From Fragilariopsis cylindrus CCMP1102 (taxonomy: Eukaryota > Bacillariophyta > Bacillariophyceae > Bacillariales > Bacillariaceae): a DNA stretch of 64,000 bases. A program made the position numbers and the translations under genes. Location: positions 1-64,000 of the forward strand of contig FMBT01000432.1 of the NCBI GenBank assembly GCA_900095095.1, read 5' to 3'. The notes under the pieces are model-generated. The model had not been told where the DNA came from and did no database searches. It worked only from the letters and a program-made list of their open reading frames with translations. Below, piece by piece: positions 3,729 to 8,348 of this stretch; positions within the stretch are counted from its first letter, which is position 1, and each line of letters opens with the position of its first letter.

Positions 3729-5486
3729 ATGACTGCTTTATCAGCGTGTGATGATGAAACATCATCATGTGAGATGCCTACTGCTACTGCTACTGCTACT
3801 ACTGATCATTATGATTTTTGTATTATCGGATCAGGTCCGGCAGGTCTTGCAACATTATCAGCGTTGCGTGAATCGTATACATTAGGTGATGGTATTCATT
3901 TAAATGACTTAAATATCCAGAGAAATCAGATAATATTAAATCGAGAAACTAAGAATAATCATCATCAAAGAAATAAACGAATTTGTGTTATTGATCCACA
4001 TCCAAATTGGATGGATGGATGGAAGAATAATTTTGATCGTCTAAATATTAAATTCTTACGTTCACCGGTTCTAGCTCATCCTGATGCATTTGATCCAAAT
4101 TCATTACTAGCATACGCATATACACATCATCGACAACATGAACTACAAGAAAGTGATTGTTCTCATTCTAAAAAACTACAATCATTAGGTGAATCACAAA
4201 TTGGACTTTGGGATTTACCATCAACATCATTATTTAATGATTTTTGTGTTGATTTGTCTAAACGATTACAACATGATTATATTTGTGGTAATGTTGTTGA
4301 TATTATGGATCATAGTAATATCAAAGACAATGTAGATAATGGAGAGGCTCCGCCATTCCAATTGACTATCAATAAGAAGGGTAGAACAAGGAACATCAAG
4401 GCAAATGCGGTAATTTTGGTTTTAGGTACAGTCGGAAAGCCTATAATTCCTCGTGGTTTAAAATTGGTACCTAATTCTAAGGTATGTCATTGGCAACAAC
4501 TTGACGCACACACAGATAAAATACAATATTGTAAGAATGTGTTGGTGGTTGGTGGTGGACTAACAGCAATCCAAACTGCCCAGTTTGCACTTGCTAACAG
4601 TAAAAACACAACAACAAAGGTTATATTATGTAGTCGTCGTCATATTCAAGAAAAGGCATTTGATGTTGCAAATTCTTGGTTTGATCGTCGACACACAAAT
4701 AGACATATAAGTAATTTTTATCATTCTTCTGTAGAGGAACGATTACGTATATTGAAAGATGCAAGAAATGGTGGTAGTGTCCCATCAATGTATATGAATG
4801 CAATTCAACCATACATAAAGAGTGGACATCTTGAAATAATTGAAGGTGGTGAAGTTGTATTCAATCGTATGACGATTGATGATGAGAATGATGAAGAAAG
4901 GAATGATCCTTCATCATCATCAAGAGTTTCCGTTACTATAAATCAGCAAGGTGAATTCAATAACAAACCATCATCATCATCATCTGTCAATACTAGCAAC
5001 TCGTCTGCTGAATATGAATTTGATTTAATATTATTGGCAACGGGTGTTGAGCCAGATTGTAATGTACATCCATTAATCCAACAGGTTCAGAAACGTTATC
5101 CAATTGATACTGTTGGTGGCTTTCCATGTATAACAGAAGATTTACAATTCCCATGCCGTGAAAAGTTATGTGTTGTTGGTAGTTTATCAAGTTTAAATAC
5201 AGGTCCTGATGCTGCAAATTTAATGGGAATTAAACGTAGTGCAAATATTGTCGCTAATACATTAGATTGTCGTTCATGGTTACGTAATGAAGGCGGGAAT
5301 GAAGATTATAACGATGACGATGGAAAAGAGATAAAGAATGGACGACGCAGTAGAGGTGGCGGTGGTGGAGTACTAACAAATCAATTTCGACACTTACAAT
5401 GGAGTGACGATGAAAGTAGTGACTCCGACTCTTCGTCATCGTTGTCGTCGTCGTATTCATCAGATAGTGAACAGGATGAAGCATAA
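3729..5486 (+). CDS. FAD/NAD(P)-dependent oxidoreductase, lysine/ornithine N-monooxygenase-like
   Basis: A single uninterrupted 585-residue frame starts at the first ATG. Residues 29-45 (DFCIIGSGPAGLATLSAL) form a dinucleotide-binding beta-alpha-beta with GxGxxG that should bind FAD. A second Rossmann signature, NVLVVGGGLTAIQTAQFAL near residue 270, would bind NAD(P)H. LILLATGVEPDC near 434 is the usual third strand that closes the FAD site. The segment FLRSPVLAHPDAFDPNSLLA is typical of proteins annotated as L-lysine 6-monooxygenase-like in bacteria and algae. The tail after about residue 520 is acidic and Ser/Asp-rich. The substrate cannot be told from sequence. Flavin oxidoreductase is secure, N-hydroxylase activity is inference. 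No targeting peptide is obvious. It lies 3' of the TIR element and is not disrupted by it. Confidence 0.8.
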   Translation: MTALSACDDETSSCEMPTATATATTDHYDFCIIGSGPAGLATLSALRESYTLGDGIHLNDLNIQRNQIILNRETKNNHHQRNKRICVIDPHPNWMDGWKNNFDRLNIKFLRSPVLAHPDAFDPNSLLAYAYTHHRQHELQESDCSHSKKLQSLGESQIGLWDLPSTSLFNDFCVDLSKRLQHDYICGNVVDIMDHSNIKDNVDNGEAPPFQLTINKKGRTRNIKANAVILVLGTVGKPIIPRGLKLVPNSKVCHWQQLDAHTDKIQYCKNVLVVGGGLTAIQTAQFALANSKNTTTKVILCSRRHIQEKAFDVANSWFDRRHTNRHISNFYHSSVEERLRILKDARNGGSVPSMYMNAIQPYIKSGHLEIIEGGEVVFNRMTIDDENDEERNDPSSSSRVSVTINQQGEFNNKPSSSSSVNTSNSSAEYEFDLILLATGVEPDCNVHPLIQQVQKRYPIDTVGGFPCITEDLQFPCREKLCVVGSLSSLNTGPDAANLMGIKRSANIVANTLDCRSWLRNEGGNEDYNDDDGKEIKNGRRSRGGGGGVLTNQFRHLQWSDDESSDSDSSSSLSSSYSSDSEQDEA

Positions 5487-6421
5487 GATTGCCATCGAGA
5501 CTTACTAGTAGTTGAATAGTTCTTCATTAAAATAGAGTTATTTCGCTATAGAAGTGACTATTGCTTCTCTGCTGCCAACTCAGAAAGGGAGAAGCGTGAA
5601 ACACATACCACAACAATACCTACTTAAAATATCTTTGTTTCAAATAATAAATATAGAGTTTTCCTCTATATCATTGTTATTCTAGCACAAATCATCGATA
5701 CACGCGTAATAAGAAGAATTGTTCGATAATTCATTCATCCGTTTGCCTTTTATGACGAGAGTTTCAGAGGACGCAAGCAGTACATTGTAGTTTGTGAATC
5801 GTGTAGCGCTAAATCACTCAGCGAAGTAAATCATTGCTCAGATAACTTGCAGAGTATTTTCTCTGTTAGAACTAGTGGCCGAGTAGTGCATTTGTACAAC
5901 GACTGTATAGTAAAGTAACTCAGTAAGGGATAGGACGCGACACGACTCGACACACCTTCACTTAACGAGCAGGTGATCCCAGGTGGTTTTATTGTATACG
6001 GTGCTTCTTCAATTTATCTTTAATAAAATAGTATTACATCAAGTGAAGTTTAAAGTCGCTACAATGGCTCATGCAATGGCTGGTATGATGCATGAGAGTG
6101 TTCGATTCTTTTTAAACGAAATGAAATGAGTTTGCTATATGAAGCAGTATGCTGTAGTACTAGTATCAAAATATAAGTATGACGGATGTGTGTCATGCAT
6201 CGTACGTGTACGTTAATGTAGTGTTCTGTTGAAGTTTTGTAGTAGATAATTATTACTGTATAGGAATATTTAAAGAATTCATGTGTTCATTATTATTCAT
6301 ATGTAGGAATTATCATTGGTCTGGCAATAAATTGCCGTCATTCACGATACGTAATACATAAAAAAAAATCCATATATATGTTATGACACAATTCAGTAAA
6401 TAATCTAACGTTTGTCGTCCA
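5487..6421. other. Intergenic, convergent 3' flanks
   Basis: This lies between the oxidoreductase stop and the stop of the UGA-containing gene on the other strand. It holds both 3' UTRs. A perfect small hairpin (GGCAAT..ATTGCC, minus strand, about 6322-6337) lies about 85 bp past the minus-strand stop. No gene is seen. Confidence 0.5.
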
Positions 6422-6944
6422 CTACATACTTTTTTTTAATTCTTCTAATGATGAATTGATTTGTTTCATTGCATTTATTCTTTTGGATTTATATTTTGAA
6501 AATAAATCTTGTTGTCTTCCTGACCAAATTTCTATTGCATCAATACCATCACTGGTATGCGCAGTAACAATTACTCGTATTGGATATGTATCAACACGAT
6601 TTTCAATTATTTGTGAGGAAGGAAATACTTTTTTCACAACGTCCAACGCTGTATTGTATTCCTGTTTCCCTCCATCTCAGTTCTTTGACTTTAGTATAAT
6701 ACAATAGATTATAATTATTGTATTAAAGTAGAAATAAATACATATCAAATGATAGATAAAAGCAAATATGGCAAGTTAGTCAGCAACATGTCGATTGATT
6801 TGTAACGACGAGTGCTTTTGACAATACTATAGCGTACGGTATACAGTAAGTTAATACAATTGTACTGTAGAGAAACATGACTTATTTATACATCAAAAAT
6901 CTTACATAAGTAATCGTAAATTTTGGAGCGACAGCAGAACTCAT
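6422..6944 (-). CDS. Rdx-type (SelW/SelH-like) thioredoxin-fold protein, candidate selenoprotein
   Basis: Two exons are proposed: exon 1 at 6906-6944 (MSSAVAPKFTITY) with donor GTAAGA, and exon 2 at 6422-6688 after an AG at 6689-6690. Both are phase 0, giving 101 residues. Exon 2 opens SKN, then TGA (6677-6679), then DGGKQEYNTALDVVKKVFP, and ends EEIKKSM-like with TAG. The layout strand-SxxU-K..Y..L...V...FP matches Rdx proteins (SelW: strand-CxxU-K..Y..L...L...FP). The later part, with IEIWSGRQ, resembles SelH. The UGA therefore falls exactly where the family has selenocysteine, but the usual first Cys is Ser. An alternative acceptor (CAG at 6662-6664, also in frame) would skip the UGA and remove the redox loop. 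No SECIS was identified by eye downstream. Rdx proteins are thought to be thiol-redox enzymes. Confidence 0.55.
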
Positions 6945-7526
6945 GGTTGATTTGAATAGTCTTCTTTGATTGGTATAGTAATGAGCCTCCTTAGATGTAT
7001 GGTACCTTAGATTAATGTGATGGTTTTGTTTGATGGTGCGTTTTGCTTATGTTATTATTTTATTGATGATGTTGTGATGTCGACACAGCGTTTTTGGCAC
7101 GACAAACACTCTCAACTGTCGAAGGGCAGGCGCAGAAGAATTTCCATCCGTAATAGGGAAAAACATTTTTCAGATCGTGCGAATTACATTCATACCATTA
7201 TTTTCAGTTTATTTTTGTGACTAGTAATTTGATCTCTAATTCGTAATAGTACAATCATGGCTGATCGTGCAAAATTTTGGTCGTTCTTGCTTGTAAAATA
7301 TACGGACATACAATCTGATCTAATCATTTGACAGACAAACAAACAAACAGTCTGATCTAATCATTTGACAAACAAACAAACAAACAAACAAACAAACAAA
7401 CAAACAAACAAACAAACAAACAAACAAACAAACAAACAAACAAACAAACAAACAAACAAACAAACAAACAAACAAGCGACATCTTAAAAAGAAAACCAAC
7501 CATATGCAGAAAAAACAAAAGAAGTA
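6945..7526. other. Intergenic with large CAAA microsatellite
   Basis: This is the divergent 5' region between the Rdx-like gene and the next plus-strand gene. Apart from the microsatellite at 7366-7475 and its duplicated flank, it is unremarkable. A 67-codon frame at 7017-7220 has no supporting features. Confidence 0.5.
7314..7475 (+). repeat. (CAAA)n microsatellite with duplicated flank
   Basis: A 37 bp unit (TCTGATCTAATCATTTGACA followed by a few CAAA) at 7314-7350 is repeated at 7351 and runs into about 27 copies of CAAA ending at 7475. The array ends about 50 bp upstream of the next start codon, so it probably lies in a promoter or 5' UTR. Its length suggests it is polymorphic. Confidence 0.9.
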
Positions 7527-8348
7527 ATGAATACACCATCAGCCGCTGAGATCGCAATCGGCAATATAAGATCGCTGTTTGAATGCTCAGTACTGATATC
7601 ACAACAAAAGATGAAACCGGAAGAGGCAGTAGTTATATTCGACGCCTTCTGCGATGAGAATATATCATTAGAATTAAATGGAAAAAGGTATCGTTATGAC
7701 TGGTTGTTATTTAGTGCTCATCAGAATTGGGCAAAACAATCTACTTTCGAAAATCTTGAGACAGAAGTGCTTGATAGAATAACATTCCATTACACATATG
7801 ACTTTTATTTCCATGACGATGAAGACGAAGACTATCTGCGAACAGTATCTCAACCTCCATCCTACAAAATTCATTGTATGGCTACGGTCAATCCAAAGAA
7901 TAGTAAAGTAATCAAGATAAAAGTTATGACGGGAGAAGCAGCCATGCACCTAGTTCATTTCAACAGGAATAACTTAAAAGAGTTGGATAATAGTAGTAAT
8001 AATATTGATGTTAATAATAACGTGAAGCAGACTACTACTACTACAAATACCAAGAAAAAGAAAAAATACAACTCATCTACTGCAACAACGCTACTACTAG
8101 TAAACAATGACCAGAATACATTATATTCAAGCACTGTTACTACAAGCGGTAGTAACGTTAGTCCGATGCCATCCTCCAATCTTATTAAGAGAGGACATCG
8201 TCGCATAGTCTCATCATATACACACGACGGTAGACATCCTCATCGCAATAATCAACACCATCATCCCATAACGTCGTTTCAGGATCGGTTGCATTCCAGG
8301 ACGATTAACTGGCTTACCACATGCAGTACTAATAATAACAAGGAATAA
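7527..8348 (+). CDS. Conserved-looking hypothetical protein with low-complexity tail
   Basis: This is 273 residues starting at the first ATG. The first ~150 residues look globular: a helical start (AAEIAIGNIRSLFECSVLIS, then a stretch with KMKPEEAVVIFDAFCDENI), a Trp/Tyr-rich middle (RYRYDWLLFSAHQNWAKQST) and strand-like segments (RITFHYTYDFYF, KIHCMATVNPKNSKVIKIKV). The helices-then-curved-sheet pattern is reminiscent of NTF2-like folds, but no diagnostic motif is present and that is a guess. From about residue 155 it is Asn/Thr/Ser/Lys-rich and probably disordered. No signal peptide or membrane segment is present. The function is unknown. Confidence 0.6.
   Translation: MNTPSAAEIAIGNIRSLFECSVLISQQKMKPEEAVVIFDAFCDENISLELNGKRYRYDWLLFSAHQNWAKQSTFENLETEVLDRITFHYTYDFYFHDDEDEDYLRTVSQPPSYKIHCMATVNPKNSKVIKIKVMTGEAAMHLVHFNRNNLKELDNSSNNIDVNNNVKQTTTTTNTKKKKKYNSSTATTLLLVNNDQNTLYSSTVTTSGSNVSPMPSSNLIKRGHRRIVSSYTHDGRHPHRNNQHHHPITSFQDRLHSRTINWLTTCSTNNNKE

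Follow-up and report, generated by a model that had tools for sequence, protein, structure and literature searches.

The sections of PMC11227280 that deal with SECIS elements describe the eukaryotic types I and II as two stems with an AUGA/GA core and an apical loop that mostly carries an unpaired A, and they give for Asgard archaea a loose eSECIS-like model with an upper stem of 7-15 bp and, for type I, a loop of 8-20. In the SELENOH, SELENOW and SELENOT proteins of the Rdx family (PF10262), selenocysteine (Sec) lies between the first strand and a helix. The relevant portion of PMC7539508 reports that SELENOH is common in algae and that SELENOW of Ostreococcus and amphioxus has a UxxU motif, and the part of PMC2375036 that gives the 2007 list for Thalassiosira pseudonana includes neither SelH nor SelW. 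Motifs of the SxxU kind are mentioned, in the passages concerned, for engineered SelO mutants (PMC3994087), for bacterial peroxiredoxins (T/SxxU/C; PMC1794560) and for a putative mercuric transport protein (C/SxxU; PMC13188914). Finally, the SPS1-UGA genes of Hymenoptera keep an in-frame UGA without a standard SECIS and, according to the section of PMC4561486 on these genes, have a helper structure that overlaps the UGA.

Here we describe a gene with an in-frame UGA in the diatom Fragilariopsis cylindrus CCMP1102, located on a window of 64,000 nucleotides (contig FMBT01000432.1, positions 1 to 64,000) and followed by a conserved RNA element that contains a SECIS core. Judging from the sequence, we think it probable that this gene is an SxxU Rdx-like candidate selenoprotein that is read through by means of a miniature SECIS. 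The predicted protein resembles SELENOH, SELENOW and SELENOT in the position of the Sec, in a VT..DG..E[IL]W[ST]G segment and in a C-terminal helix-like end, whereas it differs from them by having Ser where the resolving Cys would be and by falling below detection by Pfam. As in the UxxU SELENOW proteins, an Rdx selenoprotein would have replaced its resolving Cys, but there by a second Sec and here by Ser. The likeness to SPS1-UGA is limited to the UGA kept without a standard SECIS, since the candidate has a SECIS-like core and lower stem downstream of the gene. Among the matches listed in an open-licence library, neither an SxxU selenoprotein of the Rdx family nor an equally short SECIS upper stem came up.

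A two-exon gene and its diverged second copy

Direct reading of the sequence places two exons on the minus strand (6944-6906 and 6688-6422), and both this reading and a second copy of the gene confirm the two-exon model of the initial annotation, with its in-phase, UGA-bearing second exon. Exon 1 (6906-6944) comprises 13 codons, ATG...ACT TAT (MSSAVAPKFTITY), and provides the start codon and the proposed first beta strand. The intron (6689-6905) begins with GTAAGA and ends with AAAG. Exon 2 (6422-6688) starts at 6688 behind the first acceptor (AAAG|TC), continues as TCA AAG AAC TGA GAT GGA and encodes SKN-U-DGGKQEYNTAL...EELKKSM, with a TAG stop codon at 6424-6422. The in-frame UGA proposed to encode Sec occupies positions 6677-6679, and the codon for the Ser that replaces the resolving Cys positions 6686-6688.

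The second copy, at G000:C202:67612-68405, shares 83% identity over 741 nt with the window copy and was the one further copy present in the genome (67.9 Mb, 818 contigs searched). It has the same exons and the same UGA, together with a TAG acceptor. All 39 bases of exon 1 are the same in the two copies, as are 185 of the 210 aligned bases of the intron (12 gap columns) and 249 of the 264 aligned bases of exon 2, whose protein is 88% identical and, in the second copy, two residues longer. The UGA, the preceding Ser and the reading frame are common to both copies, and the presence of the UGA in two diverged copies makes a sequencing error unlikely. The stretch bearing the UGA is identical at 26 of 27 positions, which on its own is not significant against the intron rate (P 0.13). 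After the UGA, exon 2 contains neither a frame-shift nor an additional stop in either copy. The 15 coding changes between the copies (4 synonymous and 11 non-synonymous) correspond to a dN/dS of 0.72, and dN is 0.048 versus an intron divergence of 0.137. By these comparisons there is coding constraint, though it is modest.

Both copies have the same neighbours, an oxidoreductase gene downstream and the ORF at 7488-8348 upstream, and may be diverged haplotypes, which the published genome of F. cylindrus contains according to the part of PMC5634323 that bears on this. The convergent downstream neighbour (window 3738-5483, plus strand), which adjoins the gene in both copies, encodes an NAD(P)/FAD oxidoreductase (Pyr_redox_2, Lys/Orn monooxygenase-like). 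Between the gene and the next upstream ORF lies a long (TTTG)n simple repeat (7361-7478, read on the reverse strand), which is shorter in the second copy.

Likeness of the predicted product to Rdx proteins

The curated cut-off of the Rdx family in Pfam is 22.6 bits. The native protein gave no Pfam family at E<=10, and hence no Rdx match, and an NCBIfam search likewise returned no Rdx match. When a probe was used in which Cys replaces the Ser of the motif, Rdx was the sole Pfam family reported, with 13.0 bits (E 0.12), below the cut-off. The CxxU SelH encoded by the same genome also remains under it (13.6 bits, E 0.079, second of the 7 families listed), and the SelT of the genome obtains 45.1 bits.

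A home-made Rdx profile built from six proteins (four PDB rows, human SELENOH and the SelH of the genome) ranked SelT first (21.2 bits), the candidate second (10.7 bits) and the second copy third (10.3 bits); the best of 1203 ORFs scored 7.5 bits, and none of 2000 shuffles reached the score of the candidate. This profile places the UGA in its catalytic column, at the second Cys or Sec of the CxxC/CxxU motif. With X placed at the UGA the score drops to 5.7, and one of 1000 shuffles was as high. In pairwise comparisons of the window copy, the numbers of shuffles as good (of 1000) were 10 with human SELENOH, 14 with SelT, 213 with SELENOW and 430 with the SelH of the genome; for the second copy these numbers were 41, 57, 106 and 381, respectively. 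Thus, pairwise likeness to the CxxU SelH of the same genome is nil. The two proteins also differ in that SelH has a long lysine-rich N-terminus, which the candidate lacks. In a hand alignment with human SELENOH, both proteins have P at +19 from the Sec. Folding exon 2 alone gave a poor model (pLDDT 51.6), with 31 PDB matches at E<=10 and none at E<=0.001.

These results bear on several claims of the initial annotation. Its placement of the UGA at the Sec position of Rdx proteins agrees with the catalytic column of the profile, and the Ser that it saw in place of the resolving Cys is found in both copies, encoded by TCA in the window and by TCC in the second copy, so that the motif after strand 1 is SxxU instead of the CxxC/CxxU of Rdx proteins. 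Membership of the Rdx family holds in part: the six-sequence profile ranks the candidate below SelT and above all shuffles, but neither Pfam nor NCBIfam recognizes it. The sequence comparisons point to a remote Rdx-like protein with the UGA at its catalytic position and Ser for the resolving Cys. On balance, we use Rdx-like as a working description of a protein that scores below the formal limit of the family.

Searches for close relatives of the candidate in viral contigs and in a collection of prokaryote genomes confirmed none, and scanning the viral contigs with the CxxU SelH of the genome did not yield relatives either. As a side observation, a 552-aa open frame on the reverse strand of locus L005 (G000:C723:1-3135) contains two Rdx-like matches, the first with a CxxC motif (YCPGCRWM) and the second degenerate (YCPKQQYL).

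A conserved SECIS-like element downstream of the gene

Downstream of the stop codon, in what would be the 3'UTR, lies an island of 83 nt (block 6368-6286) that is much alike in the two copies: 79 of its 83 aligned bases are identical (8 gap columns), compared with 28 of 53 (16 gap columns) in the stop-proximal stretch and, beyond the island, 41 of 56 (11 gap columns) and then 84 of 205 (27 gap columns). Conservation to this degree has a P of 2e-7 at the rate of the next stretch and is mildly improbable at the intron rate (P 0.016). The blocks of both copies fold into the same three-tier stem (6291-6364, minus strand), which consists of the helices TATGTA/TACATA (6360-6355/6305-6300) and TATCGT/ATGATA (6349-6344/6316-6311), an internal loop and a top hairpin. 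The fold has a z score of -1.50 in the window copy, a modest advantage over shuffles (18 of 200 as good), and of -2.36 in the second copy (4 of 200); as a yardstick, the region of the SelT SECIS gives -0.41.

The internal loop, GAATGAC / AGACCA, contains the SECIS core AUGA/GA. Its 5' part is GAATGACGG (6335-6343), with the TGA at 6340-6338, and the miniature upper stem and the 3' core AGAC occupy 6319-6336. The arrangement of AUGA...GA at the base of an upper stem, with an internal loop and a lower stem, is that of a SECIS. The upper stem, on the other hand, has only 5-6 bp, closed by loops of 4-5 nt that carry no apical AA (GGCAA-TTTA-TTGCC in the window and GGCAAT-TTCGT-ATTGCC in the second copy), compared with the at least 7 bp and apical loop expected of a SECIS, and we therefore class the element as SECIS-like and not as a SECIS. 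From the UGA to the GA the core spans 16 nt in the window and 19 nt in the second copy, versus 35-55 nt in six SECIS elements of the genome, too little to accommodate a normal upper stem, an apical bulge or the AA. In addition, the base preceding the 3' GA is A, while it is U in these six elements. Besides its short upper stem, small loop, missing AA and this A, the element differs from the eukaryotic SECIS described in the relevant sections of PMC11227280 in having no ministem. The initial annotation had seen no convincing SECIS, whereas a conserved SECIS-like element that bears the core typical of this genome, but a very short upper stem, is present at 6364-6291. Since the loops differ by three inserted bases and the stem has nevertheless been kept in both copies, we argue that the element does something. 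A DNA search of the genome with the element found the two copies alone at E<=10, so there is no detectable sign of a dispersed repeat. When 16 sequence sources were searched with a covariance model built on the element, the model recovered its own two sequences and one match at chance level (18.5 bits, E 0.81).

The core also stands out by its score. With a matrix built from the cores of five families (SelT, SelD, TrxR, SelM-like and GPx, with SelH held out), the 5' core scores 16.59, versus 12.38 for the next of the 2800 TGA sites in the window, and the held-out SelH SECIS scores 14.58. A six-family matrix likewise places the candidate core first among these 2800 sites. In the second copy the conserved stem holds the sole high-scoring core among 5 TGA sites (17.04; next 3.23). 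Among 5409 distinct TGA contexts in other loci, the cores of TrxR alone outscore the candidate; where no known selenoprotein gene lies nearby, TGA sites attain up to 15.14, and the top-scoring loci of this kind had been retrieved by the core pattern itself. Leave-one-out scores of the known cores range from 3.54 to 15.96, so that the matrix would not pick up every SECIS element.

Similar cores accompany other selenoprotein genes of this genome. For TrxR, SelM-like and the GPx of locus L014, the best SECIS-like fold has AATGACGG...TGA at its base, the core of SelT is GAATGAC...CCTGAT (from a strict scan) and that of SelD, read by eye and then folded, is GAATGAC...TTGAT. Searching the genome for GAATGACGG N26-56 CCTGA, a pattern chosen after the candidate core had been noticed, gave 11 matches versus 2 for the reversed control; seven of the 11 lie 3' of TrxR (3 loci), SelM-like (2) and the CxxU SelH (2), and thus stand for some three genes, present as alleles or duplicates. 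A structure scan had already brought up TrxR, SelM-like and GPx, and the CxxU SelH was discovered through this pattern. The Rfam model SECIS_1 did not match at the locus, in ten loci that include UGA-containing genes, or in a genome search in which 133 of 1400 first-look candidates were scored. As SECIS-like folds adjoin the SelT, SelD, TrxR, SelM-like and SelH genes, and the model is silent at UGA-containing genes too, its silence is uninformative here. A strict, hand-written scan for canonical SECIS elements found that of SelT, gave single matches in the L014 and L016 stretches, which we did not adopt, and returned nothing for the candidate, the second copy, L020, L031 and the GPx loci L012 and L013. 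Because it misses other UGA-containing genes such as the latter two, this result is not decisive. In the two GPx copies, located on G000:C67 and C464, scans of the downstream stretch gave no clear SECIS, and these genes possibly have another unusual element.

Selenocysteine decoding and possible readings of the locus

By all signs, the genome decodes Sec. Of 18 matches to tRNA-Sec, 13 exceed the Rfam cut-off, and some of these are probably alleles. Run on three of the loci, ARAGORN predicted 8 tRNA-Sec genes, all with tca as anticodon, and a ninth Rfam match, in L010 (64.8 bits), was not called by this program. These results can be compared with the eleven non-identical predictions of a multi-copy tRNA-Sec in F. 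cylindrus given in the part of PMC5330540 that covers them. Several of the 13 genes above the cut-off, which lie on G000 contigs C69, C547, C56, C138 and C678 (L008-L010), are arranged in short tandem arrays, spaced 163-220 bases from start to start. Genes containing a UGA comprise SelT, the GPx genes of L012, L013 and L014, TrxR (ending in GGCUG) and the CxxU SelH (ACKQUG), and a gene of the selD family is also present. For SelD and the SelM-like protein the matched exons are ones other than those with the Sec codon, and the SelM-like match lies under the Pfam cut-off (22.5 vs 26 bits). The SelH gene (L039/L042/L046, on G000:C68 and C238) encodes ACKQUGAFKSRANKIL and has a long, well-paired SECIS. 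Together with the UGA kept in both copies, a genome that decodes Sec supports the view of the initial annotation that the gene is a candidate selenoprotein.

Other readings of the locus deserve consideration. The gene could encode a selenoprotein whose working SECIS is a different, more canonical structure further down, with the conserved stem serving another role, such as stability, localisation or binding of another kink-turn protein. About 650 nt further down, the window indeed contains a long fold (about 5695-5634) that resembles a SECIS, has a GAAAA loop and ranks first by free energy there, ahead of the miniature element, and the strict scan was also empty for other UGA-containing genes such as the GPx of L012 and L013. 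This fold, however, has a core (CGATGATTTG) unlike those of the SECIS elements of the genome, and it sits in a stretch that cannot be aligned to the second copy, in which the next ORF follows after 315 nt in all and the scan found the miniature element alone, with a core far ahead of the other TGA sites. We consider this reading unlikely. The UGA might instead be removed from the mRNA by an in-frame acceptor downstream, giving a shortened protein without Sec. The initial annotation had proposed such an acceptor, together with a splicing switch between a redox form and a dead one. The acceptor exists as a CAG (6662-6664, AAACAG|GAA) that is in frame and kept in both copies, although its AG ends at 6662 and not at 6664, and the failure of the Pfam Rdx model to see the native protein would speak for this reading. 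It is, however, the fifth of five successive AG dinucleotides between 6689 and 6662 and has a poor upstream context: pyrimidines make up 20% of the preceding 20 nt in both copies, versus 55% (window) and 60% (second copy) before the first AG. Its use would delete the nine residues SKNUDGGKQ, that is, the whole active-site loop, and would offer no explanation for the SECIS-like core that is conserved downstream. A further AG in frame, at 6683, would remove Ser-Lys alone and retain the UGA. For these reasons the proposed switch finds no support, and a product that consistently skips the UGA seems to us quite improbable.

Two further possibilities accept the UGA in the mRNA but not Sec in the protein. 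An ordinary tRNA could read through the UGA without selenium, as the section concerned of PMC4561486 proposes for insect SPS1-UGA; Sec insertion could then be absent and the frame still open past the UGA, in keeping with an element that lacks the standard long upper stem and the AA. Given that the element retains the SECIS core and lower stem, and that in the Rdx profile the UGA occupies the catalytic column, we regard such selenium-free decoding as very unlikely. Even less credible, in our opinion, is a decaying gene that now yields a product truncated at 16 residues, both copies having inherited the loss of the SECIS top. The short top in both copies and the relaxed-looking dN/dS would agree with decay, but the intact frame of exon 2 beyond the UGA, a non-synonymous divergence well under that of the intron and an island better kept than its flanks all argue against it.

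Returning to the SxxU candidate selenoprotein read through a miniature SECIS, the gene would be transcribed and its intron removed, after which the UGA would be decoded as selenocysteine within an S-x-x-U active site. The product would be a thioredoxin-fold selenoprotein of 101 residues and 11 kDa, Rdx-like and of the SelH/SelW/SelT type. In the 3'UTR element, the kink-turn core (AUGA/GA with the flanking lower stem) would serve as the binding site of SBP2, which would recruit eEFSec and Sec-tRNA, with the SECIS upper stem cut down to its few base pairs and small loop. As the resolving Cys would be missing, the lone selenol might depend on glutathione or an external thiol for its reduction; alternatively, it might form a one-residue site of a peroxidase-like or glutathionylation-sensing kind. 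More generally, a eukaryotic SECIS may be able to function with a kink-turn core, a lower stem and a capped upper stem of 5-6 bp alone, without a long upper-stem ruler or an apical AA, and in this case direct Sec insertion into an Rdx-like SxxU protein whose selenol acts alone. We put forward this wider proposal tentatively, as possible but somewhat doubtful.

A working miniature SECIS would mean that the established rules for such hairpins are overly strict, and a conserved element that retains the core alone would be missed, as would the gene it serves. An active element would separate what SBP2 needs, namely the core and lower stem, from features that have been taken as essential, namely the length of the upper stem and the apical AA. 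An SxxU protein of the Rdx type would, in turn, offer a naturally occurring parallel to the Cys-to-Ser mutants with which biochemists trap partners, as in the work on SelO described in the pertinent part of PMC3994087.
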